Assembly: GCF_000006405.1 (NCBI RefSeq)
Contig: NW_003202288.1
Span: 203,141-267,140, forward strand
Length of the DNA stretch: 64,000 bases
Direction of reading: 5' to 3'
Source: Perkinsus marinus ATCC 50983
Lineage: Eukaryota > Perkinsozoa > Perkinsida > Perkinsidae
Below, one piece after another: positions 20,077 to 56,311 of this stretch (positions are counted from its first letter, which is position 1; every line of letters starts with the position of its first letter). The notes below the pieces were generated by a model. That model was not told where the DNA came from. It made no database searches and worked only from the letters and a program-made list of their open reading frames with translations. Made by a program: the position numbers and the translations under genes.

Positions 20077-20770
20077 TTTTATCAGATCTGCCTTATATAT
20101 GTCAACAGTTGTATAAATATGAAATGATGAAAACATGTATATATTCCTAGGATCAGAGCGTATAGAATTATATTTTATATACGTTGATAATCTCTCAATG
20201 GGAAGCCAGGAAGTGGACACGATTTCTCAGAAACTGTAATCTCGGGGAATACACATTGTGGGTAATGCGATGAGGAGGACGGCGCCGATATTGGCTAACG
20301 CGAGGCAGAGGAGAAGTAGGGAAACTTGAGCTGGATGGCTACAGTTAGTGACAAACTATAGCTTCCTCGAAGTAATCATGCTCTAAGTCCCGCTATGTGG
20401 TGGCTGCATACTACTAGAGAGGGCGCACGCCCTAAACCCTTACAACATTGTGGGTAGTGCGAGGGGTTGGAGTATGTGAAGCCTAGGCTGATTAGGCATG
20501 CCTTTCTGTTGGAGGATATGATATGGTATAGGATACTATAGGGAGCTGATGAGACTGTGGCGTTGTAGTTCATGGAGTGGTAGGGATAGATTGTCTCTAA
20601 TTGTGCTGATGGGTACGACTCCTCCCCACATAATTTCGTGGCGCGTGACGGTTTTGGGGACACAGGGTGTGTCTCCTTGGTGGCTAGAATAGAGGTCTAC
20701 GGTACGTTGATTCTCCCGTTCTGTTTCGTGATGGAAGTTATTGAAGCTTCTATATAGATCGATCTTTAAA
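20077..20770. other. Intergenic stretch
   Basis: No protein was recognised here. Short open frames are present near 20340-20700 without a match I know. The downstream gene starts at 20771. Confidence 0.4.
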
Positions 20771-21401: not shown

Positions 21402-21497
21402 ATAATAGTTGTTATCAACAATATCGACTTTCTTCTGTACGGCTAGTGTTGGGTTCATTGTGGAGTAGCGCGCGCCCTGGTGATCGATTATGGCCAA

Positions 21498-21771
21498 TGT
21501 TGTAGCTCTGTGGTGATCCTGATCCGTTTGATGAACCCGAAGCCATAATGAGTGAATGATAACAGATTAATAACCACGATAGTCGTAGTGTGTGGGGTGC
21601 AGTATGCCGTGAAACGCATCTATCCGTTTCACTTGGGCGAGTGAGAGATATACAGGATATAAAGAATGCAAGAATCATCATAGTGAGTGTATGAGAACTG
21701 AGTGGTATTGAATGATAGTGAACCACTACGAGAGAGAGCAAGATAGCAAGAGAGTTATCTTGGTTCTCACA
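21498..21771 (-). repeat. 3' LTR of element 1
   Basis: 274 bp, identical by eye to 27373-27646. On the minus strand it begins TGTGAGAACCAAG and ends GAGCTACAACA. It contains the complement of the gag start region because gag begins inside the LTR. Confidence 0.97.
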
Positions 21772-21784
21772 TATCTCCCCCCCT
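21772..21784 (-). promoter_or_regulatory. Polypurine tract of element 1
   Basis: On the minus strand AGGGGGGGAGATA stands directly before the 3' LTR, the expected place for plus-strand DNA priming during reverse transcription. Confidence 0.85.
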
Positions 21785-21826
21785 AAATATACGTAGTGAA
21801 GTGGAGAATATTAATATTAGTTGACT

Positions 21827-24800
21827 TCATTGATGGTATAGACAGAGGTTTCGGTCGGCTTGGACAGAGTCATCGCTGAGACGATAAGTCGCAGTACCGA
21901 GAACGTCCTTGATAGTAAGAGGGCCTGTCCAGTTAGGTTGAAGCACACCATTGGACTTGTTGTCGGTCCACTTGAGTACTTTCTGCCCAACAGCAAAAGT
22001 GCGGCGACGCGACTGGCGATCACCAAACTTCAGCATAACCTTAGCCTCAGCTTCTTCCATAGCATCATGAACCTCCTTGATCATAGCCTCACGGCGAGAG
22101 AATCGACGCTTAGCTTCGAACTTGACTGTATCAGCAGTGATAGTATCGGAGATGTCCTCGAACCGTCGACCGAGCGAACTGGCATCGGAAGAACCCATAA
22201 AGAGTTGTTGAGGAGTATACTCACAACCATCATCGAGGAGGCGATTGTTGCAGCGCTTTTGAGCAAGAGGAAGAAAGGAAGGCCAACGATCAGTATTGCC
22301 CTTGCACATGGCTTTTAGAACTTGCTTCAGTACCCCGTGTTGCCTCTCCAAAGCTCCATTGCGATTGGGCGAGTAGACTGGAACATACCTCACTTGGATA
22401 CCCCAAGACGCAGCCCAACCACGAAAGTGCACTGATTGAAAGGATGCACCATTATCGGCAACGAAGCATCGTGGTGATCCTATCAAGCTGAACACCTGAT
22501 TGTCGATAGTATCAGTGATGGCCTTTGAAGTGATCGATGAGACCGCTAGGAACATGACATATCTACTGGCCGCATCCATAATAGAGAGCACATACTTCGA
22601 GTTATGTAGGGTGCTTGGGGGAAGAGGTCCCACGGTATCAATGTACCACACATCGCTGACCCCAATAGAGTCGCGTAATGATGAGATGATAGGTAGTAGA
22701 GGACCACGTCGAGCACGTACATACTGACAGTAGCATTTACCAACAACCCGTTGCACCGTATGAGCGATGCGGAGGCAGAAGAAGTCACGACAGATGATCT
22801 TAAGAGTCTGCTTGACGCCACAGTGACCATAAGAGTGGTGGACGTGTAGGGCAAGGGACTGACCATATCGCCTGGGAAGCACATATTTATCCCGAATCCT
22901 CAGCAAACCGTTATCGTCAATGCGGAATTTCGAGAGACCTCTGCCAATCAGGGTTCGTAGCTTCTCGCAGTGTGCATCAGAGTCCTGGGCTGCCTTGAGC
23001 CAGGTACGAGCGAGTTCTGGTTCGAGAGGGATAGAGCATTGCAGAGGAAAGTCAGTACCAGTCTTCCAAGCTGTGAAGCAACGGTGCAGTAGAGAAGGAA
23101 CAGGTAGAGACGACAGAGGATCCGTGACTGTGGCTGCAAAGGTAGTACAGCAGTGACAGCTAGCAGGATCTTGTGCAACATCGTCATGAAAGTGGTCAAA
23201 GTAGTTGGTAGCAGAGTGGCCTTGATGTGTGGGTATAATGGTCGGATGCTTGAAATGTTGGCCGTCCTCGATACATCGCGCCATGGTATCGCAGAGACTT
23301 GGCAGAGGATGATCTCTCGACACCCACAGCACACCATCGACGTAGGACTGGAAGATCATATACCTAGAATGCCACGAACCATAGTTGAGTTGGTCGAAGT
23401 TACACCACTCTTTAGTACAGTTGGCATTGTCGGTAATAGAATAGACCGGTGGTAGTAGTAGTGTCTTAGCAGCCTCTAGTAGCAATAAAAGGGCCATCCT
23501 TTCACGTGTTGTGCTGGACAGAGTCGACTCCAACTTTGAGAAACGACCACCGAAGATCTTCACCGGTAGCACTGAGAGAGGTCTTTCGCATCCCAGTAGC
23601 TCACTCAGAGACGGAGAACCCAGTAGGAGTGGATGGTCGTCAACGTTATGACTCGGATCCTGTGCAACTACTCGCAGGACGATACCACTCCATGAATGTT
23701 GGTTACCATCGGAGATGAGAATAGTGGCGATATGGTTGGCGTCACTCTCACTATACAGACTCATACAGGGTACTCCCGACATGTAGAATCCCATGACCTC
23801 GCGAAAGGCGTTCGGCACCCGTTCGATGTGCTCGACCAAACGAGGGTCATCGGTGTCGATGTTGTGGTCGCCGAAATCTTTTAGAGCATGTTGGAGTACG
23901 TCAGTAGCAGTGAGTATCCGAGGAGTGAGCCATCCTCTCATGTAGTTAGCCACACCAGTCCAACTTCGCAGCCAAGCCGTACGGTACTCTCGCACAGGAA
24001 GCTTACGACGCTTAGACTTCTTGTTCTTGGGATGGAACGGCAACCCCTTGATGAACACTTGTAGAGCGTTGTCGATGGCAGCGTCACTGAGTACCGTGCG
24101 TGATGGCGATGGTGTTACCCCGTGCGATGAGAGGCGTAGACCACAGAAGTCGATGATAGAGACTGGGCCTTCTTGCTTCTTATCGTTGATGTGGAAGTTG
24201 AGGTTGGTTAGTATCTCCTTGGCGATGGTCATAGCTTTGACTATATCGGCATCACTACTACCACAGAATAAGAGGTCATCTTGGTAGCAGACTACTGTAA
24301 CGTCAATGCCACCCTTGTCAAGAGCTGGTTGAATGAACTCAGTGACGATCTTGAGAGTACCAAGGCCGAAGAGTAGACTGCTGAACTTCCATCCTTGGAC
24401 CAAAGTGGTGAAGCGGTAATGCTGAACTCGATGAGATGACGGATCCTTGGCGGCAACAGCGAAGAATCTTGAGAGCTTCTCACTTAGATGGAGACTATAG
24501 AATGCGTGTTGAAGATCTAATCGACCGAAGGATACCGTACGTTGCTTGGGGATGTCTTGGATTTGTAGCAGAGCCGTGGTTAGGAACTGCTTGGCCAATT
24601 TAGATCTCTCAACCTCCTTGATGCCATCGCATGGAGTAGCCGTATAGATGAATCGTTGCTGCGAGTCGTAGACAAGTCGAAGTCTGTTAATGGGTCTGCA
24701 GTCAACTGTGACACGGAAGCGCTGATGAACATCAGGAGAGCTGGCACTTCTCGGAGCCGTAACAACACCGTCAGCTTTGTCCACAAGGCAGATCTCGCAG

Positions 24801-27421
24801 ATGATGGGACAGTCCTCGGGCCGAACTTTCTCAACCTGTCCCCTCTTGGCCATGTCCTCAAGACGAAGGAAGATGATGGCATTGTCCACCGGAGCCCGTC
24901 CTCTCGGAGCTTCACGGAAAGGTTCCACGACGGCATGTTCCAGAGCTTCAAAGTGGACCTTGATGATCTTCTTCCCTGGGGAGCTAGGGTCCTGGACAAC
25001 GTCGATAAGAGGAGTGCATTCCTCAGGATAGTGATCTCTGATGGCAGAGCTGCGAGCACAGTGACCAGCACGATCGACCATGGAGTTCGTCATACTCTCA
25101 GCACCATTGGATGACGGAGTAGATAGACCATTGATCTGAATGCCATGATCGCTCACCATACGGATTCCCAGATCTGAGAAGAGATTTCTTCCCAGGATGC
25201 AAGGGGGCTGACAGCCCGATACCACCAGAAACTGTAGAGGGAGACGGGAGAGCTGAGCGTCGTTGAAAGAGCAGTGAAGTGTGACAAGAGTGCTGCTCGA
25301 AAGGAGCTTCCCGTCGCCAAACTTGATAGAGATTGGGCTTGGGAGTACAATAGAGCTGCTCGGCTCGATGAGGCCATTGCGACTGAGGAAACTTATTGTG
25401 GATGAGTTGATCAGAGATATATTGGCTCCGCTGTCGACCAAGCCGACCAGTGGGCAATATCTCTTAGCAGTACCGACACGGATCTCGATAGTAGGATCCT
25501 GGGGCAGGGAGTTGACGAAACGTGTGGTGGCACTCAAACATGATGCCTGTGGGTCCTTTGAGATGACTGCCTTGGCCGTGTGGGTCTCTACCACGTGCAG
25601 ACCAGAACTGTCGTCCTCACAGTCGTCACCCAGGGATACCAGTGAACACGTTGTCTCTGCGCTACCATTACCCTTCCTTGAAGTATTGGATGGCTTGCCA
25701 CCAGATAGACCTCGTCGGCATACGCCGGATAGGTGTCCAGCCTTCTTGCAACGAGAGCATTGTAGTTGAGAACGGTTGCACCTATGGTTTTTACCAGCAT
25801 CACCGACCGTGAGTTTACCACAGCGACCACAACGTTCATGTTGGCGATGGATACTACCAGTAGTGCAGGAACTGGCATGATGACCTTTCAGACCACATCG
25901 AATGCAAGCATTGCTATCGAGACCAAGCTCTACAGCAGCAGCGGAGTGGACTTTGGCGTTCATGGTCTTCTGATTGGCATCAGGACGAGTGACAAGACCT
26001 CCTTGAAGTTGTGGTTGATGTTGTTGAGACTGTCGTTGGATGCTCGAGGGAATGAGCTGGTTGTGACCGTTCTTGGATTCCAGGAAGCTCAACATTGACT
26101 GTTTGAACTCCTCGTATGGCAGTCGGAGTAGGGGATCCACCACACTCTTAGCCATAATGGAGTCTGCATCAGTGAGACCATCGGCCAGTCGTTCACTCAT
26201 CTCGGCATTGCTGATGGGGATACCAGTAAGGGTCTCCTTGATATGGGCCACGTCCTCAACACGCTCAGCGAAAGCAGGGATAGCTTCCTGAGGGCGTTGC
26301 TGAAGAGTACGCCACTGTTGGTCAATGGCTCGCATCTCCAAACGGGTCATATTAGAGACATCCAAAACTTTGATAATAGCTACATGACCTTCTTCTCTAG
26401 CCACACTGATAGGAACCTTCTTCCTGACCCGAGACCTTAGTGGTTCGCGTAGACAGCGAAGAACAATAACAGCAGAGACTTGTCGGCTGCATTCGAAGTG
26501 GTCGATGGCAGAGCATATGGTAGCTCGCCATCTGGCATAAGAACCCACGTTAGTGATGTTGAGGATGAACTCATCAGGAAGTGGTTTTCCAAGGAGAGAA
26601 GAAGCTTGTTTGTGTGCATAGTCAGCAGAAACGACAGAACAATCATCCTTGACATAGAGAGGTCGCAAACCGATGGTCGAAGCATTCGATGAGGACAGCA
26701 CAGTTGGTGATCCCGTTTGTAGATGAGGGACATGCAAACCCGTGCACGATCTTGAAGATGCTCTTCCACTCGGAACTTGTTGTTCCATTCGGGGAGGTAG
26801 AACTGATGTCGAGATACCAGCAGCAACCGATGTCGTCCGTGAACCCACCAGTTGAATGGGCGGCGGAGCAGATAGAGGCGTCCGAGAGGTTGCAATGAGT
26901 TTTTTCAGATCAGCACGAGAAGGTAGACCATCATCGTCTCTCGACAGAGTGGGCAAACCTAGTTTATCGACAATGATATCCATCAGGCAGCGAACAATCC
27001 ACTGAGCGCATGGTTTCACCCATGGTGGAAGGTCACACGACAGAAGGTGGTCATCAGCAATGGTCACGCAACAGTCAACGCAGGCGTCGAAGGATGCTCG
27101 AAGGGAAGTGTGACTCGCTGAGGAGACTGCTTCAGTAGCTTGGCTTTGCTGACCACTGTCAGTGGCTGGGCCCTGACCGTCAGTGCCAGATGTTGTTCCC
27201 TCGACCGAAGCCTGTGTAGGGTCGGTTGTTGGATTTACATCAACGGCAATGGTCGCTACACAGTCTCTCAAGACGAGCCTGTAATCTCCTTCTCCGCATT
27301 CAATATGAACCAAGGCATCACCAATAGAGCCATGATGTCGCAGTAGTGCTTCTCGGCAGACAGACCCCAATATGTTGTAGCTCTGTGGTGATCCTGATCC
27401 GTTTGATGAACCCGAAGCCAT
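21827..27421 (-). CDS. Gag-Pol polyprotein of element 1
   Basis: One uninterrupted frame of 1864 codons from an ATG at 27421 that lies inside the 5' LTR (MASGSSNGSGSPQSYN). The frame is open for 65 more codons upstream. Gag has zinc knuckles (CIRCGLKGHHASSC near residue 501, then CGRCG and CSRCKKAGHLSGVC to about 562). The aspartic protease site is DSGANISLI (about 661). Reverse transcriptase has VTVDCRPIN, FGRLDLQHAFYSL and YQDDLLFCG (about 1044). RNase H marks are TTRERMALLLLLEA and ITDNANC (about 1300-1330). Integrase has HHSYGHCG (about 1524), WYIDTVGPL (about 1592), VADNGASF (about 1650) and SPNRNGALERQHG. The zinc finger's second half is CYC where CxxC is usual, a visible oddity. No frameshift or stop separates gag from pol, so processing must come from the protease. 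Confidence 0.95.
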   Translation of the reverse strand: MASGSSNGSGSPQSYNILGSVCREALLRHHGSIGDALVHIECGEGDYRLVLRDCVATIAVDVNPTTDPTQASVEGTTSGTDGQGPATDSGQQSQATEAVSSASHTSLRASFDACVDCCVTIADDHLLSCDLPPWVKPCAQWIVRCLMDIIVDKLGLPTLSRDDDGLPSRADLKKLIATSRTPLSAPPPIQLVGSRTTSVAAGISTSVLPPRMEQQVPSGRASSRSCTGLHVPHLQTGSPTVLSSSNASTIGLRPLYVKDDCSVVSADYAHKQASSLLGKPLPDEFILNITNVGSYARWRATICSAIDHFECSRQVSAVIVLRCLREPLRSRVRKKVPISVAREEGHVAIIKVLDVSNMTRLEMRAIDQQWRTLQQRPQEAIPAFAERVEDVAHIKETLTGIPISNAEMSERLADGLTDADSIMAKSVVDPLLRLPYEEFKQSMLSFLESKNGHNQLIPSSIQRQSQQHQPQLQGGLVTRPDANQKTMNAKVHSAAAVELGLDSNACIRCGLKGHHASSCTTGSIHRQHERCGRCGKLTVGDAGKNHRCNRSQLQCSRCKKAGHLSGVCRRGLSGGKPSNTSRKGNGSAETTCSLVSLGDDCEDDSSGLHVVETHTAKAVISKDPQASCLSATTRFVNSLPQDPTIEIRVGTAKRYCPLVGLVDSGANISLINSSTISFLSRNGLIEPSSSIVLPSPISIKFGDGKLLSSSTLVTLHCSFNDAQLSRLPLQFLVVSGCQPPCILGRNLFSDLGIRMVSDHGIQINGLSTPSSNGAESMTNSMVDRAGHCARSSAIRDHYPEECTPLIDVVQDPSSPGKKIIKVHFEALEHAVVEPFREAPRGRAPVDNAIIFLRLEDMAKRGQVEKVRPEDCPIICEICLVDKADGVVTAPRSASSPDVHQRFRVTVDCRPINRLRLVYDSQQRFIYTATPCDGIKEVERSKLAKQFLTTALLQIQDIPKQRTVSFGRLDLQHAFYSLHLSEKLSRFFAVAAKDPSSHRVQHYRFTTLVQGWKFSSLLFGLGTLKIVTEFIQPALDKGGIDVTVVCYQDDLLFCGSSDADIVKAMTIAKEILTNLNFHINDKKQEGPVSIIDFCGLRLSSHGVTPSPSRTVLSDAAIDNALQVFIKGLPFHPKNKKSKRRKLPVREYRTAWLRSWTGVANYMRGWLTPRILTATDVLQHALKDFGDHNIDTDDPRLVEHIERVPNAFREVMGFYMSGVPCMSLYSESDANHIATILISDGNQHSWSGIVLRVVAQDPSHNVDDHPLLLGSPSLSELLGCERPLSVLPVKIFGGRFSKLESTLSSTTRERMALLLLLEAAKTLLLPPVYSITDNANCTKEWCNFDQLNYGSWHSRYMIFQSYVDGVLWVSRDHPLPSLCDTMARCIEDGQHFKHPTIIPTHQGHSATNYFDHFHDDVAQDPASCHCCTTFAATVTDPLSSLPVPSLLHRCFTAWKTGTDFPLQCSIPLEPELARTWLKAAQDSDAHCEKLRTLIGRGLSKFRIDDNGLLRIRDKYVLPRRYGQSLALHVHHSYGHCGVKQTLKIICRDFFCLRIAHTVQRVVGKCYCQYVRARRGPLLPIISSLRDSIGVSDVWYIDTVGPLPPSTLHNSKYVLSIMDAASRYVMFLAVSSITSKAITDTIDNQVFSLIGSPRCFVADNGASFQSVHFRGWAASWGIQVRYVPVYSPNRNGALERQHGVLKQVLKAMCKGNTDRWPSFLPLAQKRCNNRLLDDGCEYTPQQLFMGSSDASSLGRRFEDISDTITADTVKFEAKRRFSRREAMIKEVHDAMEEAEAKVMLKFGDRQSRRRTFAVGQKVLKWTDNKSNGVLQPNWTGPLTIKDVLGTATYRLSDDSVQADRNLCLYHQ
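27355..27369 (-). promoter_or_regulatory. Candidate primer-binding site of element 1
   Basis: On the minus strand TGGGGTCTGTCTGCC begins three bases after the 5' LTR end, at the usual place for a tRNA primer site, and begins TGG as complements of tRNA CCA ends do. The tRNA cannot be named from sequence alone. The site lies within the gag coding frame. Confidence 0.4.
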
Positions 27422-27646
27422 AATGAGTGAATGATAACAGATTAATAACCACGATAGTCGTAGTGTGTGGGGTGCAGTATGCCGTGAAACGCATCTATCC
27501 GTTTCACTTGGGCGAGTGAGAGATATACAGGATATAAAGAATGCAAGAATCATCATAGTGAGTGTATGAGAACTGAGTGGTATTGAATGATAGTGAACCA
27601 CTACGAGAGAGAGCAAGATAGCAAGAGAGTTATCTTGGTTCTCACA
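27373..27646 (-). repeat. 5' LTR of element 1
   Basis: 274 bp, identical by eye to 21498-21771, followed by CCAA (27647-27650), the right copy of the target duplication. It carries the presumed promoter and the gag ATG at 27421. Confidence 0.97.
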
Positions 27647-31365: not shown

Positions 31366-31389
31366 GCAGTACATTGATCTCGTGGTGTT

Positions 31390-32191
31390 ATGTCCGACAC
31401 AGAGGCCCCCACTGCTACTACTACCCTTTACGTATCGCCAATTGCTGACCCTCTTATGGGAGGCAAGTTGAATGCTCGTGCTATGAAGCTTGTGAAGAAG
31501 GGTAGTAAATACTACTACTAGGGAATTGTTGTTGTATATGTCCTCTTTAGCTGCTACGACTAAGTCTTTACGGAGGGGCGTACCGGAGGTCCTGAAGGCC
31601 ATAAGGAAGGGTAGTTGGGGGATTGATGGTATTAGTATTATGATGATGATGATCAGGTCAGAAGGGTATGATACTATTGGCTGCTGATGTTTACCCTGTG
31701 GATGTTATTGCTCATGTGCCGGCCTATTGTGAGAAGAATGGTATCCCTTATGCATACGTACCATCAAGACAAGCGTTGGGTAATCCAAAGGTCGTGGGTT
31801 CGATCCCTGGATGGGGTATTTAGGTACTGCCTGCCAGACTAAGAGGGCGGCCTCCGTAGTATTGGTGATACAGCCTAAGGATGACTCTACTTATACCAAG
31901 ACTTACGAACAGGTATTCCTCCATTTTACCGCGCGCCACGAAATTCCCCCGTCAGGTCCACAAGGGGATCCTGGCCATCAATCCCTACCTGTAGAGATTC
32001 GGAACCGCTACCGACCAACGTTTTACCCCCGAGATATTACCAACGATTATACCCACCGCCAAAACGTTGCTTTCTATCACTTCTGGTATGGTCGTGTTTA
32101 TACTAGGCTTGTGGGGCTTTCCTCGAGACATGTTGGAAATCGAGTCGGACGTATTTTCAGCTGCTTATGGGGGTTTGTTATGAGGCTTTGA
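31390..32191 (+). CDS. NHP2: NHP2 (H/ACA snoRNP L7Ae-family) copy 1, altered C-terminus
   Basis: NHP2 is the L7Ae-type kink-turn-binding subunit of H/ACA snoRNPs, which guide pseudouridylation of rRNA in the nucleolus. ATG at 31390 (MSDTEAPTATTTLYVSPIAD). Four exons joined by three introns (48, about 46 and 44 nt; the last is 31780-31823). Spliced exons read MGGKLNARAMKLVKK, TKSLRRGVPEVLKAIRKG, MILLAADVYPVDVIAHVPAY, GIPYAYVPSRQALG and TACQTKRAASVVLVIQPKDD, matching NHP2 end to end. After YTKTYEQ (31912) the match to copy 2 stops and the frame runs into about 92 unrelated residues to TGA 32189-32191. The tail may be spurious or the result of the duplication breakpoint. Copy 2 has a short normal-looking end. 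Confidence 0.85.
31780..31823 (+). repeat. 44-nt intron that is almost wholly a tRNA-like 3' half
   Basis: The intron reads GTAATCCAAAGGTCGTGGGT then TCGATCCCTGGATGGGGTAT then TTAG. This corresponds to the 3' side of an anticodon arm, an AGGTC variable loop, a T-arm (B-box 31797-31806) and an acceptor-like strand. The exon join ALG/TACQTK is the NHP2 sequence. Confidence 0.85.
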
Positions 32192-32216
32192 AAAGTGTTG
32201 GAGTAGTAATGTATGT

Positions 32217-32365
32217 TCGCTTCCCTCCTCAGCTGAGCTCGGAAGTTTCCCCACTAATTATAGAAGTAGATGAGTTCCGGTAGAAGTCTTCACAGGAACC
32301 AACAAGAAATTTTCATATCATCACCATCACATGTAGTTGACCATGTGCATATTTTTCCACACCGA
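32217..32365. repeat. Dispersed repeat B, copy 6 (best copy)
   Basis: Blocks in order: CCTCAGCTGAGCTCGGAAGT, TTCCCCACTAATTATAGAAG, AGGAACCAACAAGAAATTTT, CATCACATGTAGTTGACCAT, GTGCATATTTTTCC. It lies between the two NHP2 copies. Confidence 0.7.
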
Positions 32366-32460
32366 CTGTGGAATCTTCGCACTGCGAAGATTTTGGGGGA
32401 TATTCATCTGGGAAAATTCGGTTGATGAAGAGCTGTGGTTGTTGTAGTGTTCTGGTAGTA

Positions 32461-33001
32461 ATGTCCGACACGGAGGCCCCCACTGCTACTACTACCCTTT
32501 ACGTATCACCAATTGCTGACCCTCTTATGGGAGGCAAGTTGAATGCTCGTGCTATGAAGCTTGTGAAGAAGGGTAGTAAATACTACTACTAGGGGATTGT
32601 TGTTGTATATGTCCTCTTTAGCTGCTACGACTAAGTGTTTACGGAGAGGCGTACCGGAGGTCCTGAAGGCCATAAGGAAGGGTAGTTGGGGGATTGATGG
32701 TATTAGCATGATGATGATCAGGTCAGAAGGGTATGATACTATTGGCTGCTGATGTTTACCCTGTGGATGTTATTGCTCATGTGCCGGCTTATTGTGAGAA
32801 GAATGGTATCCCTTATGCATACGTACCCTCAAGACAAGCGTTGGGTAATCCAAAGGTCGTGGGTTCGATCCCTGGATGGGGTATTTAGGTACTGCCTGCC
32901 AGACTAAGAGGGCCGCCTCCGTAGTCTTGGTGATACAGCCTAAGGATGACTCTACTTATACCAAGACTTACGAACAGGTACTCCTCCTCAAAAACAAATA
33001 A
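32461..33001 (+). CDS. NHP2: NHP2 (H/ACA snoRNP L7Ae-family) copy 2
   Basis: Second copy of the same gene, near identical to 31390-31912 through all exons and introns, with ATG at 32461. Differences seen include KSLRR to KCLRR in exon 2, a few silent changes and a short deletion in the second intron. All splice sites remain intact; the last intron is 32845-32888. The reading frame continues after YTKTYEQ as VLLLKNK and stops at TAA 32999-33001, giving a protein close to the usual NHP2 length. It is the better candidate for the functional copy. The PDK1-like kinase starts 160 bp downstream. Confidence 0.88.
32845..32888 (+). repeat. 44-nt tRNA-like intron in NHP2 copy 2
   Basis: Same sequence as the intron at 31780-31823, with the B-box at 32862-32871; it was duplicated with the gene. 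Confidence 0.85.
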
Positions 33002-38784: not shown

Positions 38785-40531
38785 GGAAGAATTCGCATAT
38801 GGTCAACTACGTGTATTGGTGATAATGTGGAAAATTCCGAGGAAGTCTTGGGAAATTCTTGTTCGTTTCTGTCTCCGAATTCGTATACAAACATCTACAG
38901 TGAGGAAACTCCCGAACTGAGGATCTATTCCTCTAATAGTGCTCGCTACTGGCGAGACCTACCACTGCTACTCTCCCCAACTCTGAAGAATAATACAGCT
39001 CTATCATCGCCAATGGTAACCACTCCGACGCCAGGACTAAGAAGGCAATGCGAAGATGAGCTGAGAGGATACCGACATCGTATTTAGCGCTTTGACTGGG
39101 CCAATGTGAGCGTTGTAAGAATCGATACAACTCGAGTGGGGTCCACTGATAACGTCGATAGTGCCCTGGGAGGTGCCCACTAGCAGGGGAGGTGACCCCT
39201 CAGGGCTGCCGTCTGAACAGATGTGATAGCGAGGGGCGCGGCAGATTGATTTACCCCAATGTGCTAGGGCGGTCGGATAGAAGGCGCCGGGCAGGTCCAC
39301 AGTCGAGGCCCATGGGGTGACTTCGTAAACGATCTGCCACGAGGAGGTTCTTGGCACAGACCGCCGTCACTGATGGATACTTCCCCCTTGAGAAGACGTC
39401 TGAGGACTCCCTGGTATCGATAGGATCGACCTGATGATGCAGAGGCAACTCAACGGGAGCTCGGGATGCTCACCTTGGCCTGGCGTGGTGATCAGACCAC
39501 CTACGACTATCTCCGACCTACACGAAGGGGTAACTCCGAAGCAGGAGGGAGCCTCCTCACCGGCTGTAGGTCATGGAAGTGTAGACACAGCCGTTAGTGG
39601 AAACGTGCTCCCATTTACGCGACCAAGATGCGCATTCCCATTCGGTGACCTGTCGAGAGGCATCGATGGGAGAGGTCCAGAGTGTCCCTACATAGCTCGA
39701 GGAGACAGCATCGGTGAAGGCAACAGCCAGGTGGCGATCTTCTGAGTCGAAGGAGAGGCCACATACTCCTGGATTGCCTTGGGAAAGGCAGCTTATTCGG
39801 CCTGAGGGGTGAGGTGGTGGTGGTGAGAGTAGAGTGGGGGTATTGAGGATCCAGAGGTGGTTGTTGAGGAAATAGAAGTCACGGAAGGAGTGGTATGTAT
39901 TTAAAGTAGTAAAAGTTACGGAAGGAGTGGTATGAATTCAAAGCAGTAGAAGTTACGGAAGGAGTGGTATGTATTTAAAGTAGTAAAAGTTACGGAAGGA
40001 GTGGTATGAATTTAAAGCGGTAGAAGTTACGGAAGGAGTGGTATGTATTTAAACGGTAGAAGTTACGGAAGGAGTGGTATGTATTTAAAGCGGTAGAAGT
40101 TACGGAAGGAGTGGTATGTATTTAAAGCGGTAGAAGTTACGGAAGGAGTGGTATGTATTTAAAGCGGTAGAAGTTACGGAAGGAGTGGTATGTATTTAAA
40201 GCGGTAGAAGTTATGGAAGGAGTGGTATGTATTTAAAGCAGTAGAAGTTACGGAAGGAGTGGTATGTATTTAAAGCGGTAGAAGTTACGGAAGGAGTGGT
40301 ATGTATTTAAAGCCGTAGAAGTTATGGAAGGAGCGGTATGGATTAAAAGTAGCATGATAATTAAAGTACCAAGAGCGAGTGATATAGAGGAATGTGGAGG
40401 GGCTCAACGTGGACAATCTACCCCTGCCTTCCGAAGGTCCAACTCTGAGGGTAGCAATCTTGGCCAAGCCGCGATGCATGCCAAAGACTACCACCTGAGG
40501 TGAGTGTGGTATGGGGAGATGTTCGAAGAGC

Positions 40532-49655: not shown

Positions 49656-50019
49656 TGATAGTACTAAAGACAACTGTGATACTACTCTTCCGAGCTTAGT
49701 TGGTATGCGTCTCAGTGTACTATATGATGTAATCATTCCCGGTCGTAAACGACCGCAAAAGCGTTATTATAGGGGTACGGTTGTTGCTGTTCGTGCCTCC
49801 GGTGATGTTGATATCGAGTGGGATGATATCCATAGTGAAATTTCTACTCTTGACTTATCCTCGGCTACTTATCACATCGTGCGCTGATCAGGGGCGCCCG
49901 CTTGTTCTTGATCGATACGCGAGCCCCTACGCGATGTGCGTACGTGCGTAGTTAACCAGATCCTTTGTTGGATAACTCCGTAGCCATCTTGGCTCAAGTT
50001 TCGTTTGTTAATCCTATTA
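49656..50019 (+). repeat. 5' LTR of element 2
   Basis: 364 bp. It includes the same 60-codon frame (MRLSVLYDVIIPGRKR...) that in the 3' LTR forms the end of pol, then a spliced-leader copy at 49977-49998. The last base is the A of the gag ATG. Confidence 0.95.
49977..49998 (+). promoter_or_regulatory. Spliced-leader sequence in the 5' LTR
   Basis: Twenty-two bases, TCCGTAGCCATCTTGGCTC followed by AAG. The dinoflagellate spliced leader has CATTTTGG in the middle; this one has CATCTTGG, the variant I associate with Perkinsus. It ends exactly at AAG, with no GT donor after it, so it is a mature (already spliced) leader joined to a 20-nt untranslated leader and the gag ATG at 50019, not an SL RNA gene. 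Confidence 0.9.
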
Positions 50020-51551
50020 TGGCGACACCTGGGAGATCTCCCCCTCCCCCCGCTACCACCGTCATATCTACTGATCATCAATCTGATCTACAAAGGCTTC
50101 GTCGTGAGCTTGCCAGGGCTCGCCGCTGCCTAGCCCAAGTTCGTGAAGACCTTAATAATGTGATCGACGACGGTTCGGACGACAACTCGCAGGTTCTGGA
50201 CGACTTACAAGGGCGCGAATCTGCCGCCCTGGCCCGTATCCCTGAGATCGAGACTAGCATGGCTGAGGCTCAGGCTACCATCGACGCTGAGCTCAGTGAT
50301 CTGGCCCGTCAAGCAGGATTGTCACGTGCAATCCAAGCTCGTTTGAGCATCGAGGATCAGAATACGACTTCTTCACCTCCAAACGATCGTGAGGGAGTCC
50401 TTGAGTCCCCCCAATATGTGAGCTTCACCCCGAGCCGGGCCGGTAACGTGATCGATTCGGTCCCTAGAGTGGATGAACGCCCACCTACAACGTTGGCTGA
50501 CCTGAACCGATTGCCCGTACCTGAAGTGCAGTCTGGTCCTCACGTAGCTTCTCATGTTTCCCTTGTAGAAAATCTGTTCGTGGAGACTGGTGCTGGACAG
50601 TTCAGCGGCTCCGGTTCGTTCGTCCCGCACGCGAAGTTTAAGCTTACCTGCTTTACAAAGTTAGCGACGAGTCTGAAGCCATGCCCTGCAGCATTGGCTG
50701 TCGCTCATGAGGTGGCAAGGACAACGAGGTATGATTGGGCTTCTATTCGTCATGAACTCTGGCAGCAGTTCTCTCGTAAGGACCAGCTGAGGGACGAGTA
50801 CCGTTCGGCTCTCCAGTCCTTGAAGTTCGGGGGCTTGGAGCACGCGGATGACTTCCTTCGGAAATGCTCGGCACTCTACCATCTTTATCAAGACGTTTAT
50901 AAGGATGAGGCCTCCGAGAGAAGGGTTATGGTTCGCGCGGTTGTCAATAAGTTGCCTGAGAATCTACGCTTGGATGTGATCGAGTCCGTCCACCACTCCA
51001 TCGGTGTGTCGCGTGACACCGAATGTACCACCTCTGAGGATCTGGAGTGGGAGCTCCTTTTGCCCTTCGATGGCGTTCGTGTGGGACCGACTGTAGTGAG
51101 GTGCATAAGGAAGAGCTGTCGTGTCTTCCGTGATGCTTCGATTAAGCTTACTCCACAGTCAAGTTCTTCAAAGGCGTCTGAGAAGGAGGCTGCACGCACA
51201 ACTTTGCACACGCGTGCCGCCATTGACACTCTCTCCCAATTACACGACGGGAACCCCAAGCATAAGAGAGAGAATCTGTCAAAGTGGGCTTCTAAGTTTG
51301 CGGCTGTCTATGTGATCGGTGGGCCTGGGGTACAAGGCCCCTCTGATAAAGTGGTTCGCTCGGATGAGTCTAAGACAATCTCACTTCGTTCGGGAAAAGG
51401 ACAGCTGTGGTTCGTGGCCTACAACAACAAGACTGAAGGTCTCAATGCTGTTAAAGAGATTGAAAGTGATCAGTTTCGAATCAGACCCTTCCAATTCCGA
51501 GGGCGCCAAGTCGCTGCCGGAGCTAATGCTTCCTCGGAGACGGGAAACTAG
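50019..51551 (+). CDS. Gag protein of element 2
   Basis: 510 codons from the ATG at 50019, whose A is the last base of the LTR, to TAG 51549-51551. The frame is open upstream into the LTR, but the ATG directly after the spliced leader is the natural start. Residues about 20-90 (RLRRELARARRCLAQVRED and on) look like a coiled coil. Residues about 230-330 (WASIRHELWQQFSRKDQLRD, LKFGGLEHADDFLRKCSALY, VVNKLPENLRLDVI) resemble the helical capsid core of retrotransposon Gag proteins. No CCHC zinc knuckle is seen, unlike element 1. Translation of pol depends on slippage near the last codons. Confidence 0.9.
   Translation: MATPGRSPPPPATTVISTDHQSDLQRLRRELARARRCLAQVREDLNNVIDDGSDDNSQVLDDLQGRESAALARIPEIETSMAEAQATIDAELSDLARQAGLSRAIQARLSIEDQNTTSSPPNDREGVLESPQYVSFTPSRAGNVIDSVPRVDERPPTTLADLNRLPVPEVQSGPHVASHVSLVENLFVETGAGQFSGSGSFVPHAKFKLTCFTKLATSLKPCPAALAVAHEVARTTRYDWASIRHELWQQFSRKDQLRDEYRSALQSLKFGGLEHADDFLRKCSALYHLYQDVYKDEASERRVMVRAVVNKLPENLRLDVIESVHHSIGVSRDTECTTSEDLEWELLLPFDGVRVGPTVVRCIRKSCRVFRDASIKLTPQSSSSKASEKEAARTTLHTRAAIDTLSQLHDGNPKHKRENLSKWASKFAAVYVIGGPGVQGPSDKVVRSDESKTISLRSGKGQLWFVAYNNKTEGLNAVKEIESDQFRIRPFQFRGRQVAAGANASSETGN
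50020..50034 (+). promoter_or_regulatory. Candidate primer-binding site of element 2
   Basis: TGGCGACACCTGGGA begins at the first base after the LTR, as expected of a tRNA primer site, and starts with TGG. It overlaps the gag start codon, so the primer site encodes the first residues of Gag. Confidence 0.5.
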
Positions 51552-54500
51552 ACCGGTCGGCCGAAGATATTTGTGAGACTATTCTTCGAGTCGACCATTC
51601 CGATGATTATGCTGGTGTCTCACATGAACTCGATCTTGTCGAGGATGTACCCTTGTCTACTTTTGATTCTCTGCTCTTTTTAAAGTCTAAGCGCCATCCG
51701 CCTGAAGTTATTATACGCGGGAAGGTCACTTCCCCCTCGGATGTGCGTTCTACCCTGCCCACACCGGTCTTTATTGATTCGGGGGCCGGTCTTAGCTATC
51801 TTTTGTTGTCGGACTCGTCAGATCTGTGCTGCGTCCCTGGCTCTCCGTTCGAGAAGTGTGAAGCAGATTTGAGCTCTGTTCGCCTTGCTGATGGTTCTAG
51901 GCGTGAAGTGTCCGCCGTCGTGGAAACCATCCTTGGATTGTTCCCGCATGATTGTGCTGATCCTCTTGTCCTGGGCGGGGTTCGTATCCGACTCCGTGTT
52001 TTGGTTGTGAAATCTTTCTGGAGAGGTTCTTCTACTTGGTGTGTACTTGCGGGTCGAAATCTACTGTCCTACTGGCAACTCGAGATTCGTGGTTCGTCTT
52101 ATGCTGCCGTTCGTGGGGTCTGCGTATATCAGAACGCTGTGAGAGATCCTTCCTACCCGTCGAGTGACGACCTGAGTATCTTGCAAGTGCTTCCTGAAGG
52201 CAGTGAACCTCCTGATTTGAACCTACCTGGTGTTCGTGTACAGCCCTCTTGTGACGATTCTGTTGATCTTGGCTTCCCTATCCCGTTGGGTACCAAGACT
52301 ATTAGCCGTGTGATGGACGTTCTGAATGCCCTTTGTGACGAGGGATGGGCTCCTCTGTTGAAATGTCCTGGCGATCGTCTCTCCGTTCGATTACGTGAGC
52401 TGTTACCAGTTGAGGTTCGTGACACTCTCCAACAATGTTACACATTTGAAATCAAGTTTGCTGGTTTTGAAAGTGGTTCCGTGCGCGAAACGCGGAACTA
52501 TGCTGGTGCTCTGTACGATCGTTTATCCGCTGAAAATCGAAAAGCGTACTTTGATCTTATCGAGGACTACGTGAAACGTTCTTGGTGGGTTCGAGCTCCG
52601 TCGGTAGTACCGACTATTTCTTCCATGTCTCCAGTCATACCTGTGTTCATAGTCGGTCCTTCGATGAACAGGAAGCCACGGTTGGTGTTGGACTGCCGAG
52701 AACTGAATCGCGGTCTCCCTAAGGCCAGTAGTGAGGCGCCTGATGCCTTTGTAGTTATAGGCTGTCTGCGGTGGCAGTCCCCACCAGTGATGGCGACTGT
52801 CGATGCTAAGCAAGCCTTCTATCGGGTTCGGTTGGAGAATTTAATTCTACAGCTAGGTGCTGCTACTTCCACGTATTGGAGTTCGCGTATGTGTTTTGGT
52901 CTGGTCTTTGGTCCCTGTGGTCTCTTGAGCTCGTTCGGCAAGCTGGTTGCAGCCATATCTTGTCTTTTCATGGTATGTCTCTGGAGCTTGTTTGTCGACG
53001 ACTTCGTCATCGGCGGTAGTTCTGATGCTGTTATTAATAATGTGAAGGTTTTGCTCTTCGCCATGTTTACGTGTGGCTTTGGCGTCCAGCTTGCAAAGCT
53101 CCGGTTCATTTGTTGTGCTTCTGTGCGTGACGCCGTGACTTGGCTCCTGTCTTCTCTCGGTGTTCCTATCTCTGAGAAGCTTCCCGTGCTCGGAGTTAAC
53201 TTCTATTATATTGATGATAACTTGGTTCTGTCGTGTGATAGATCGTCTCGACTCCAATCGGTGCGTGACTTTGTGGTTTCTGATACCTCGTTCGAGACTT
53301 CCAAGTCTGAGATTTACTCCATCTGTGGAAAAATCGGTTTTGATCCCGCAAAGTGTCACCCTGATTGCCGAGCAGCTGCTGATGCTATGCGTGCTTTGAT
53401 TGGTAAAGCTTTCAACAAAGAGCCCTGGTCTGAGAGAATTAACCTTGTTACCTCAATGACTACAGCTCAGTTCGCGGTTTTCACTGCTCTTCTGACGTGG
53501 ATGCGTGAACTCACTGATAATTGTGATTGTTCTCATACTTCTCCCTGTTCGTCGTCATCTGAGCCGATCTCTGCTCTAACATTGGCGTGCGATGCTTCCC
53601 GATCGGGCGGAGGATTTTTGATTGTGTCTTCCACCGAGGGGGGCGGAGATAAGAGCGATGATTTCGATATATCTTCTAGCCCTGTGATCTGTAGTGAAGC
53701 GTTTCGTTGGTCTAAACGCCAGCGTCTGTACCACTCAAATAGGAGAGAATTGATGACTCTTCTGTTGGGTCTGCGAACTTTGAGTAAACTCCTGGCTCAC
53801 CACGTTGAGCACTGTGTCTGTCGTGAGCCTTTATCGATTTCGGTTCGCTCGGACAATCGTGCTTGTATAGCTTGGTCAGCACAAGACGCCTCTAGTTTGT
53901 TCATGCGGAGTAAGGCCGTTGAGAAGCGCGCTATTGGCCGTCTTATCCTCGCTATTGCGGATGAGATCAAGTTTTTGAGGCGCCATGCTTCAGTTTCCGT
54001 TCTGCATGTTGAGGGTTCGCTGAATCTTGAGGCGGATCGCCTGTCACGTTTGTTCGATCGTCCAATTGGCAATGGTCTATCACTGGCGGACGCGCTAGCA
54101 GGCGACGTTGAGTCTGAAGAGATTTTCTGGCCTACGGATGATGATGAAGAAACCAAGGACTTGTTATGCATTTTGATCGACGACTTCAGCGATGACTCTG
54201 CAAGGTCGGCTTTGGACCGTTCGCGGTTGTTCTCTGAGTTGGAGCTCGAGAATGTGGCCTCTGATCTCGGTGCTGACTTGATCGCTCTTTTTCCTTCTGA
54301 AGTATCTTCTTCATCTTTCGCTGACCAGATATCTCATCAGTGCTATGACTTGTCCCAAGTATTTCATACCGTTAAGGCTCTTAGATTTATCTTGAGAGTA
54401 CTGAAGGCCAACTGTAAAGGACGTGAGGCTTTGGAGGAACTCGAGTATCCAAGTCTTCCTAATGACCGTGATATTCGCGCTTTGGTTCATTCCGCACAAC

Positions 54501-56179
54501 AGTCCGATGACATCTGTTCGAGACTAATTCGAGAGAGCCCCACTCCTTCTGGTCCCTATGTTCAGGACAACAATCTGGTAGTCTTCCGGTCTGGTACTCC
54601 GTTTGGATTCGAGCTGCGACAGTTCGTGATACCTAAGTCTTCTGTCGCTCTTCGTGAGAAAATTTTGCTCGAAGCTCATCGTCGTTGTGGACATCAAGGT
54701 CTGCGACCATCTCTGTCTTACGTTGAGGACTTCCATTTGCCTTCGGGCACGAGTCAGATGAGAGATCTTCTTCGCTTATGCGTTGTCTGTCGAACGTTGA
54801 GAGCTCGTCGTTATTGGAATGCTCTTCCTTCCGTTCGTACCGACGTTGTAGAATTGAACACGAAGTGTCCGTATTATAAGGTCGCTATTGATTATTATGC
54901 TGTCGGCGACAAGATTAAATTGTTGTCTGCTATGTGTTGCTTCTCGAAGCACATCTCCTTCTTTCGAGTGGAATCGGAGACTTCGGAAGAAGCTCTAAGA
55001 GTGTTGAAGATTCTCCAACTCCGCACAGGGGGTGTTCGTATCATTCGTAGCGATCGAGCGTCGTATTTCCGTTCTGTGTCGAACTTCATCGATCGCGCTG
55101 CTACTTTGTTGAATGCATCCGTGGAGCTTACATCTAGTCGTTCGCCATGGGAGCTCGGTTCTGAAAAGCTGCATGATATCGCAGGAGATCGCTTGAGAGT
55201 TCTCTTGTGGAGTTCTGCTGGCCGATGGCCTGATGATTCCGTTCGTGAGCAACAACTTCTCGAGGAGCTCATGCTTCTGATGAATACGAGACCATTGGGT
55301 ACTTATTATGTGAGCGAGAACGGCTCGGACGTGATCACCCCTGATGCTTTATGTTATGGTCGTACTCGTCGACTCGGTTGTCTGTATTCCGGTTCGACTA
55401 TGGACGATGCTGAGTTTGCTACTAACTTCGCGCCATACCGCGTCAAAGCGTTCCGCAACGCCTTTGTGTCTTGGCTCTGGAGTGAGTTAAAGAAGCACTC
55501 GTGCTCTTCGGTTCGCGCTAAGTCCCACGGTGTCACCCCCGCTGAGTTCGCTCCTGGCGATGCCGTACTAGTCTACATGTGTGGTAGAAAACTTGGTATG
55601 TCCTTTCGTCTTGGTCATGTTATCGAACTGGTATCTGGCCGTCGAGTCCGAGTTCGATTCCCTTCCGGTTTGATCACCCTGGAGAATCTGTATAACATCG
55701 TTCTTTTGCGAGCGCACTCTCACATTAGCCCCGAGCAGTCTAATGTTAGTCGAGTTGGTATGCCTATTGTGCTGGGCTCTGGTTCGTGTGAGCGTGAAGC
55801 CGAGATTTGCTTTGATCCCTGTAACTATTCAGGTGAGGTTTGGGTCAAGCTCACGAACGGTGATGCGCCTGAGATTGTTGACCTGTCCTCTGCTGTGTGG
55901 CGACCCGGGTCGCTCTCATCGACCGACTCGGATCACCAAGGGGGGCGTGATAGTACTAAAGACAACTGTGATACTACTCTTCCGAGCTTAGTTGGTATGC
56001 GTCTCAGTGTACTATATGATGTAATCATTCCCGGTCGTAAACGACCGCAAAAGCGTTATTATAGGGGTACGGTTGTTGCTGTTCGTGCCTCCGGTGATGT
56101 TGATATCGAGTGGGATGATATCCATAGTGAAATTTCTACTCTTGACTTATCCTCGGCTACTTATCACATCGTGCGCTGA
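51527..56179 (+). CDS. Pol polyprotein of element 2 (protease, RT, RNase H, integrase)
   Basis: The frame is -1 relative to gag, open from 51527 and overlapping gag by 25 bases; it has no ATG of its own near the start. Domains: aspartic protease FIDSGAGLSYLLL (about 51770); RT LVLDCRELNRGLPK (52682), TVDAKQAFYRVRL and FVDDFVIGG (52988); RNase H LACDASRSGGGF (53583), NRRELMTLLLGL, VRSDNRACIAW and EADRLSR (54030); integrase zinc finger HRRCGHQG...CVVC (54678-54790), core IDYY (54887), IIRSDRASYF (55042) and ELGSEK (55152), then MNTRPLGTYYV and GDAVLVYMCGR as in BEL/Pao elements. The last 77 codons lie in the 3' LTR and encode a small beta-rich segment (KRYYRGTVVAVRASGDVDIE) resembling SH3/Tudor-like barrels. 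Stop TGA at 56177-56179. Confidence 0.93.
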   Translation, partial: CFLGDGKLDRSAEDICETILRVDHSDDYAGVSHELDLVEDVPLSTFDSLLFLKSKRHPPEVIIRGKVTSPSDVRSTLPTPVFIDSGAGLSYLLLSDSSDLCCVPGSPFEKCEADLSSVRLADGSRREVSAVVETILGLFPHDCADPLVLGGVRIRLRVLVVKSFWRGSSTWCVLAGRNLLSYWQLEIRGSSYAAVRGVCVYQNAVRDPSYPSSDDLSILQVLPEGSEPPDLNLPGVRVQPSCDDSVDLGFPIPLGTKTISRVMDVLNALCDEGWAPLLKCPGDRLSVRLRELLPVEVRDTLQQCYTFEIKFAGFESGSVRETRNYAGALYDRLSAENRKAYFDLIEDYVKRSWWVRAPSVVPTISSMSPVIPVFIVGPSMNRKPRLVLDCRELNRGLPKASSEAPDAFVVIGCLRWQSPPVMATVDAKQAFYRVRLENLILQLGAATSTYWSSRMCFGLVFGPCGLLSSFGKLVAAISCLFMVCLWSLFVDDFVIGGSSDAVINNVKVLLFAMFTCGFGVQLAKLRFICCASVRDAVTWLLSSLGVPISEKLPVLGVNFYYIDDNLVLSCDRSSRLQSVRDFVVSDTSFETSKSEIYSICGKIGFDPAKCHPDCRAAADAMRALIGKAFNKEPWSERINLVTSMTTAQFAVFTALLTWMRELTDNCDCSHTSPCSSSSEPISALTLACDASRSGGGFLIVSSTEGGGDKSDDFDISSSPVICSEAFRWSKRQRLYHSNRRELMTLLLGLRTLSKLLAHHVEHCVCREPLSISVRSDNRACIAWSAQDASSLFMRSKAVEKRAIGRLILAIADEIKFLRRHASVSVLHVEGSLNLEADRLSRLFDRPIGNGLSLADALAGDVESEEIFWPTDDDEETKDLLCILIDDFSDDSARSALDRSRLFSELELENVASDLGADLIALFPSEVSSSSFADQISHQCYDLSQVFHTVKALRFILRVLKANCKGREALEELEYPSLPNDRDIRALVHSAQQSDDICSRLIRESPTPSGPYVQDNNLVVFRSGTPFGFELRQFVIPKSSVALREKILLEAHRRCGHQGLRPSLSYVEDFHLPSGTSQMRDLLRLCVVCRTLRARRYWNALPSVRTDVVELNTKCPYYKVAIDYYAVGDKIKLLSAMCCFSKHISFFRVESETSEEALRVLKILQLRTGGVRIIRSDRASYFRSVSNFIDRAATLLNASVELTSSRSPWELGSEKLHDIAGDRLRVLLWSSAGRWPDDSVREQQLLEELMLLMNTRPLGTYYVSENGSDVITPDALCYGRTRRLGCLYSGSTMDDAEFATNFAPYRVKAFRNAFVSWLWSELKKHSCSSVRAKSHGVTPAEFAPGDAVLVYMCGRKLGMSFRLGHVIELVSGRRVRVRFPSGLITLENLYNIVLLRAHSHISPEQSNVSRVGMPIVLGSGSCEREAEICFDPCNYSGEVWVKLTNGDAPEIVDLSSAVWRPGSLSSTDSDHQGGRDSTKDNCDTTLPSLVGMRLSVLYDVIIPGRKRPQKRYYRGTVVAVRASGDVDIEWDDIHSEISTLDLSSATYHIVR
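51542..51596 (+). promoter_or_regulatory. -1 ribosomal frameshift signal between gag and pol
   Basis: The heptamer GGGAAAC (51542-51548) has the X XXY YYZ form in the gag frame (G GGA AAC) and stands directly before the gag TAG. Six bases later a stem-loop begins: GGTCG (51555-51559) pairs with CGACC (51592-51596), and CGAAGA (51562-51567) pairs with TCTTCG (51583-51588), an 11-bp stem with a small internal loop. Slippage by -1 enters the pol frame, which is open from 51527. Confidence 0.85.
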
Positions 56180-56311
56180 TCAGGGGCGCCCGCTTGTTCT
56201 TGATCGATACGCGAGCCCCTGCGCGATGTGCGTACGTGCGTAGTTAACCAGATCCTTTGTTGGATAACTCCGTAGCCATCTTGGCTCAAGTTTCGTTTGT
56301 TAATCCTATTA
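55948..56311 (+). repeat. 3' LTR of element 2
   Basis: 364 bp, one visible mismatch to the 5' LTR. Its first 232 bases are the end of the pol gene. The spliced leader is at 56269-56290. Confidence 0.95.
56269..56290 (+). promoter_or_regulatory. Spliced-leader sequence in the 3' LTR
   Basis: Same 22 bases as at 49977-49998. Twenty-one bases remain between it and the LTR end. Confidence 0.9.

Follow-up and report, generated by a model that had tools for sequence, protein, structure and literature searches.

The DNA analysed here (the window) is a stretch of 64,000 nucleotides of Perkinsus marinus ATCC 50983, positions 203,141 to 267,140 of contig NW_003202288.1, forward strand. Its plus strand carries element A, a long terminal repeat (LTR) retrotransposon that is ordinary in its body, and each of its two LTRs contains a copy of the host spliced leader (SL). 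The LTRs (49656-50019 and 55948-56311) are long direct repeats of 364 bp that flank the coding region and pair with one mismatch. In the 5′ LTR, U3 (49656-49976) is followed by the SL (49977-49998) and then by a short leader that extends to the LTR end (49999-50019); the second copy of the 22-nt SL lies at 56269-56290 in the 3′ LTR. The SL copies at both places read TCCGTAGCCATCTTGGCTCAAG. The ATG of a gag-like open reading frame (ORF) is located at 50019, on the last base of the LTR and 20 nt 3′ of the SL end, and 43 nt were counted from the SL start to the LTR end. An earlier reading of the window (the original prediction) had claimed this placement in both LTRs and an R/U5 of 43 nt, and both were recovered. 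When the window was scanned for the SL with up to three mismatches, the two LTR copies were the sole matches, and 100 shuffles gave none.

Two P. marinus leaders have been reported, PmaSL1 (22 nt, ACCGTAGCCATCTTGGCTCAAG) and PmaSL2 (21 nt, CATCTGG) (PMC3101222), referred to below as L-type (CATCTTGG) and S-type, respectively. Three L-type SL RNA genes in the genome, two at C34 and one at C190 (C190:469), agree with PmaSL1, and an S-type SL RNA gene is present at C272; spacing alone would suggest further SL RNA gene arrays at C77 and C102. The hallmark of such genes, an SL followed by a GT-starting intron (GTARATATCAGG), was found among the contexts seen only at the two C34 loci, C190:469 and C272. 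The SL in the 5′ LTR is exact PmaSL1 except for its first base, which is T here and A in the host. The T/C site that had been taken as a deviation from the host leader is not one, because PmaSL1 and the three L-type SL RNA genes read the same there. According to a review, the reported P. marinus SLs vary at positions 1 and 2.

The gag-like ORF (50019-51551, plus strand) showed zero Pfam matches and 85% identity over 491 residues to a copy at C39 (L013). A candidate tRNA primer-binding site, TGGCGACACCTGGG (50020-50033), lies directly 3′ of the LTR and within the gag ORF; a tRNA search of the 64-kb window gave no match. The pol ORF (51653-56179, plus strand) is in a frame different from that of gag and runs into the 3′ LTR. 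It encodes reverse transcriptase (RT) and then integrase, with Pfam matches to RVT_1 (377-516), Integrase_H2C2 (999-1049) and rve (1078-1143) at E values of 1e-4 to 1.2e-3, all below the curated cut-offs. The order of RT before integrase is that of Ty3/gypsy or BEL elements. This pol is identical (100% over 97%) to Pmar_PMAR024545 of P. marinus ATCC 50983, and its relatives include a P. chesapeaki protein (29% identity) and a P. olseni protein (32%, over a third). A polypurine-like tract, GGGGGGCG (55940-55947), stands just before the 3′ LTR.

Searching the genome with the whole LTR of element A gave five places. Family members that lack the SL would have refuted the original prediction; all five places carry it, one with a point change. 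Two of the family A copies (L041 and L043) read SL/TGCGAG/TTTCG and the window copy reads SL/TTTCG. Use of an AG six bases downstream would explain this 6-base difference, as would a small deletion.

Spread of the leader over LTR families

The exact 21-nt L-type core was found 34 times in the 54.5-Mb genome and not once with the reversed-pattern control. Besides the three SL RNA genes, these are 31 copies that fall by their flanks into eight families (A 4, B 5, C 9, D 4, E 5, F 1, G 1 and H 2); family G is a single copy, called an LTR solely from adjoining pol-like sequence. A search with the 15-nt part CCATCTTGGCTCAAG gave 73 matches (control 0), which extended families B, E, F and H and added family I (C22, C70 and C251), C50 and C343/C199. 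Further single SL copies were seen at C164, C293, C142 and C122:587, and two at C304. With three mismatches allowed, the core matched 112 times, versus once in the reversed control. Nine families (A, B, C, D, E, F, H, I and C50) have confirmed LTR pairs, and the distance from the SL end to the first ATG is 19-36 nt in families A-E, H and I. The S-type leader showed 28 exact matches (reversed control 0). Contexts were seen for nine of the 28, one being the SL RNA gene and eight lacking the SL RNA intron. S-type leaders stand in further contexts at C190/C122, C197/C137, C224/C235, C15 and C37, and the matches at C190 and C197 are paired, 6.4-6.5 kb apart.

The SL families resemble element A in other parts. 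TGG... stretches lie a few bases or less from their LTR ends, like the candidate primer-binding site of element A, and G-rich tracts also precede their 3′ LTRs; tract and primer site were assigned by position only. An ATG inside the LTR or at its edge, with the candidate primer-binding site after it, was seen in the window (50019-50033) and in families C, E, H and I, and in families A and I the reading frame stays open across that site. Target-site duplications of 4-5 nt could be read by eye in copies of families B, C, E and I, with no clear reading for the window element or C132.

The proteins of the families were compared by blastp. The pol proteins of families A and I share 22% identity over 619 residues, the lowest value between SL families, and I and B share about 30% over 541 residues in the gag-side part. 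LTR flanks are mostly unalignable between families, yet in recent copies the SL core is exact except at position 3. Within families, copies were collected by U3-only searches, old copies included (22 matches for E, 12 for B and 33 for C), and steps were counted on LTR trees built without the SL. In family E the mean number of Fitch steps was 0.79 for SL positions 4-22 versus 0.93 for the flanks (20 of the 22 matches; L105 and L108 have no SL region left). In family C it was 1.16 versus 0.77 (24 copies; the others lost the SL region, end before it or were unfetched). The expectation that the SL is more conserved than its flanks thus held between families and failed within them, and protection of the SL within families was ruled out by these counts on U3-chosen copies. 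The exactness of the SL in recent copies may be explained by renewal at copying, as we read it, or by constraint on a few active copies.

A first step count had used 17 of the 22 family E matches, 15 C copies (of 33 U3 matches), 6 H, 10 B (L112, L113 and spurious matches excluded), 5 F (the S-type L139 excluded) and 4 I copies (three copies of a C281 array and a minus-strand C231 copy excluded). Most of these copies were retrieved with the 15-mer and are therefore fixed at SL positions 8-22, so this count is fair only for comparing position 3 with the flanks and positions 4-7.

The window holds further repeats. An old family E LTR piece lies on the minus strand at 20324-20444 (lower bound approximate), with U3 at 20345-20444 (C281:223485-223584, from the U3 search) and then an SL that is one base shorter than the L-type and carries further changes. 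Element 1 (21497-27646, minus strand), with LTRs at 21497-21771 and 27372-27646 and with RVT_1 and rve above cut-off, is an LTR retrotransposon that served for comparison. Outside the window, at C281:22900-24600 (L100), three LTR-like copies stand in tandem about 565 nt apart, with family I sequence 3′ of the SL and a different U3. Minisatellite arrays with 43-nt and 37-nt periods occupy positions 1-430 and 39799-40422 of the window, and direct repeats of 288 and 261 nt, about 1.07 kb apart, lie within 31387-32987.

Tandem leaders, leader types, U3 mosaics and position 3

Tandems of the form SL, 0-9 nt and CCATCT..CTCAAG were found three times in the genome, at C176, C235 and C37 (control 0). 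Up to nine intervening bases are free in this pattern, and in all three tandems they are SL bases or none. At C176 a 15-nt suffix follows the SL, and the junction falls at the point that would read GTAG/CC in a relic. The C235 tandem consists of an SL, a 20-nt copy and a 7-nt GCTCAAG, and its sister at C224 has a single SL preceded by AG. At C37 the SL is followed by a 17-nt suffix, and no sister was seen. Shorter suffixes were observed at C343 (7 nt, GCTCAAG) and C122 (6 nt, CTCAAG), whose sisters at C199 and C190, respectively, have no repeat. Four of the five tandem loci have a sister or partner LTR in which the SL is single. Moreover, C293 gave a short suffix repeat match, and C164 may be another, decayed tandem. 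The simplest reading is that a new SL was joined to RNA already holding a relic. The 15-nt form at C176 equals the DinoRL relic of dinoflagellates, in which the first seven bases are lost, and the short suffixes resemble the truncated CTCAAG relic of dinoflagellate retrogenes, for which a TG acceptor has been proposed (PMC12014239). The tandem 3′ LTR at C176 (L027/L078, C176:50404-50439, minus strand) passes into an inverted copy of the leader and the start of gag, which resembles a product of snap-back reverse transcription.

Both leader types occur in family F, in which five LTR copies are L-type and one (L139, C108) is S-type. The flanks of L139 and of the L-type copy L056 are identical (30/30 upstream and 26/26 downstream), and their SLs differ at position 3 and by the S-type shortening. 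Other older SLs are also one base shorter near the same place, namely L117, L126 and L127 of family C and L106 and the window piece at 20345 of family E. A family F flank search with a free gap gave 15 matches versus 17 in the reversed control, and two among the six matches listed are known F copies.

Similarity between families was also seen to break at the SL. The U3 regions of families D and H are homologous over 156 nt (78%, E 1e-32), ending at the SL, and no similarity was detected in the 300 nt after it; the pol end of family H is A-like (L050), and the D frames match element 1 and do not match A. Family I and the C281 array have 64 nt after the SL in common (94%) but not U3. C50 and C343 share no U3 either, and their 55 nt of similarity downstream of the SL (82%, E 3e-9) consist largely of gag start. 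Strand transfer through a common R would be expected to give such breaks.

Among the 42 one-mismatch matches to the core, 29 differ at position 3 (21 T, 7 A and 1 G), 4 at position 2 and 9 elsewhere; these counts come from the three-mismatch search (100 of 112 matches listed) and include both LTRs of pairs and inherited states. In the 20 family E copies chosen by U3 alone, position 3 required five Fitch steps, versus a maximum of four in 167 flank columns. It required three steps in B, two in H and two in F, values that were equalled by one flank column in B, none in H and one in F. Both LTRs agree at position 3 in 14 of 14 pairs, and family E copies with zero flank differences still differ there. 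This pattern fits changes made at copying, at the would-be RNA 5′ end. RT might stop or misread at position 3, with positions 1-2 then supplied by the previous U3/R; this would account as well for the T or A seen at position 1, a base that is largely family-specific, with both states in family A. A modified cap may be the cause of the position-3 changes; for the dinoflagellate cap, 2′-O-methyl C at positions 2 and 3 has been proposed (unpublished, quoted in PMC3388326). CpG decay is insufficient as the sole cause, since A and G states occur besides T. Host SL RNA variants seem a less likely source, as no CTG, CAG or CGG copy among the 15-mer contexts has the SL RNA intron, although the reported variation at positions 1 and 2 leaves them some weight.

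Origin of the leader in the LTR

From the observed position of the SL, its exactness in recent copies, its spread over families, the two leader types, the tandems, the position-3 variability in four families and the SL mosaics, we infer trans-splicing of the genomic RNA and strand transfer through the SL. The full-length RNA is thus likely to be trans-spliced with the host SL, which would form the start of R. The precursor RNA would receive the host SL just upstream of the short gag leader, so that R would begin with the SL. RT would copy the SL into minus-strand strong-stop DNA, and strand transfer would place it into both new LTRs, so that each round of copying would refresh the LTR copy from host SL RNA. 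Between rounds, the SL in the LTR would provide the homology of the 3′ R, and its terminal AAG could act as acceptor when splicing next takes place. The same would apply, with either host leader, to many other families of the genome that are only distantly related. One of the two alternatives raised in the original prediction, a trans-spliced RNA with the SL in R, therefore appears favoured by the tandems, the leader switch in family F, position 3 and the mosaics.

A bolder extension, which we offer tentatively, is that the start of R is supplied in trans by host SL RNA in each cycle and is not inherited. The element might then not need to specify where its RNA begins, the SL might act as a common R for U3 exchange between unrelated families, and position 3 might be a copying-error record of modified cap nucleotides.

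Several points weigh against renewal of the SL by trans-splicing, which is read from signs in the DNA. Within families the SL decays like its flanks, with no protection after insertion. Two family B LTRs at C234 (L110 and L111, C234:72450-72705 and 93180-93430) have lost the same 8 nt and with them the 3′ end of the SL, as one nested element or two insertions; an SL can thus be transmitted or duplicated in a damaged state. That S-type and L-type differ by one base could reflect a deletion for the five older copies and, strictly, for L139. The LTRs of element 1 have no SL (best local matches 11-13 nt). All families but A were found by the SL, so exactness is partly a matter of search choice, and SL-less families stand outside the count. 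The tandems with context amount to five loci only, and the tandem searches demand copies ending in GGCTCAAG, so their common SL 3′ end is partly built in. The C176 tandem is in the 3′ LTR only, followed by the inverted leader and gag-start piece, and represents an aberrant product; in family E copy L104, 2 nt are repeated within the SL, for which splicing offers no explanation. Finally, position 3 did not change in family C (24 of 24 copies have C) or in the four family I copies, and the agreement of 14 of 14 pairs is weak evidence on timing, most pairs being near-identical throughout.

Alternatively, the LTR may have captured an SL and encode it, transcription starting at the SL and the RNA mimicking host mRNA without trans-splicing in the cycle. 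The SL would then be kept by selection for promoter function, translation or strand transfer. Almost every LTR copy seen has just one SL, position 3 is constant in family C, two family B copies with a truncated SL exist, and position-3 variability would mark a transcription start too. A promoter role has also been proposed for retroposed DinoSL in dinoflagellates (PMC6050394). We nevertheless regard an encoded leader as unlikely. Tandems of SL and suffix arise most simply by splicing onto RNA that starts upstream, and in family F the leader type differs while the flanks agree. No common U3 motif was seen before the SL by eye (no motif search was run), and strong constraint would be required to keep the core exact between families whose pol identity falls to 22%.

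One ancient capture followed by vertical inheritance, with no present trans-splicing and with exactness due to constraint or conversion of active copies, seems less probable still. The similar place of the SL in all families agrees with it, and families found by the SL are a chosen set. On the other hand, most LTR flanks are unalignable between families and pol is distant, both leader types are present, and element 1 matches family D at the protein level yet has no SL. Chance, assembly artefact or SL RNA gene fragments, which the multicopy nature of Perkinsus SL RNA genes might suggest, are refuted by the shuffles of the window (0/100), by the reversed controls (0, and 1 versus 112 at three mismatches), by copies on many contigs and by the absence of the SL RNA intron downstream in every context seen outside the SL RNA genes. 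An SL-tagged retrogene, that is, a host gene with an SL relic and without LTRs, does not apply, as the SL lies within both LTRs.

If the genomic RNA is indeed trans-spliced, these elements would join SL trans-splicing and LTR retrotransposition, which are usually treated apart. RT working on SL-capped RNA would then be a likely enzyme source for SL-tagged retrogenes, and the structure of the Perkinsus SL cap would become testable from genome sequence. Through the CTG, CAG and CGG copies, RNA data that already exist could readily be used to distinguish leaders that are encoded from those that are added.

Comparison with known systems

In the literature on SL with LTR elements and on Perkinsus retrotransposons, no SL inside an LTR was found in titles and abstract starts among the matches listed, a scope that lay mostly outside subscription journals. 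Within it, the statement that no described case was known is borne out. In P. marinus, more than 100 SL-like genomic sequences without the intron have been reported; they mostly begin with T, lie in tandem repeats, are followed by variable sequence and include both leader types (Zhang et al., 2011, PMC3101222). They are probably the same copies as the LTR leaders described here. The authors concluded that these sequences are not functional SL RNA genes, and the section on them draws no link to LTRs; the LTRs offer a home for these copies, which that study left unplaced.

The Ty3/gypsy element Cer1 of Caenorhabditis elegans is alike in that RNA of an LTR retrotransposon receives an SL. It is unlike in that SL1 was described only on a 2.4-kb spliced mRNA, the 8-kb gag-pol RNA apparently not being trans-spliced at the SL1 site (PMC3315495). 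In Echinococcus, LTRs also meet SL trans-splicing, in the solo LTRs of ta-TRIM elements. There, however, a transcript that starts in the LTR seems to vie with the SL for an acceptor site of the host, and no SL in the LTR is mentioned in the parts of the source available (PMC4558846). The dinoRNAVs share with the present elements a parasite RNA with a 5′ dinoSL, for which mimicry has been speculated, but are represented by an RNA virus assembly without LTRs (PMC10235124).

Two dinoflagellate-type leaders, CATTTTGG, were also noticed on the minus strand of IMGVR_UViG_3300045993_001077 (L131) at 2746-2766 and 2893-2913, 147 nt apart. Their AT-rich surroundings pass into GC-richer, coding-like sequence (1.1 kb read), possibly a retroposed transcript or a chimera.

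The closest likeness is to the SL-tagged retrogenes of dinoflagellates, which carry DinoSL relics (Slamovits and Keeling, 2008, as cited in PMC6050394 and PMC12014239). In both systems, reverse transcription of trans-spliced RNA would leave an SL in DNA, and in the retrogenes re-splicing gives an SL followed by CCATTTTGGCTCAAG relics (PMC12014239, PMC6050394). The retrogenes are host genes, whereas in P. marinus the SL lies in both LTRs of RT-bearing elements and is seemingly renewed at copying.
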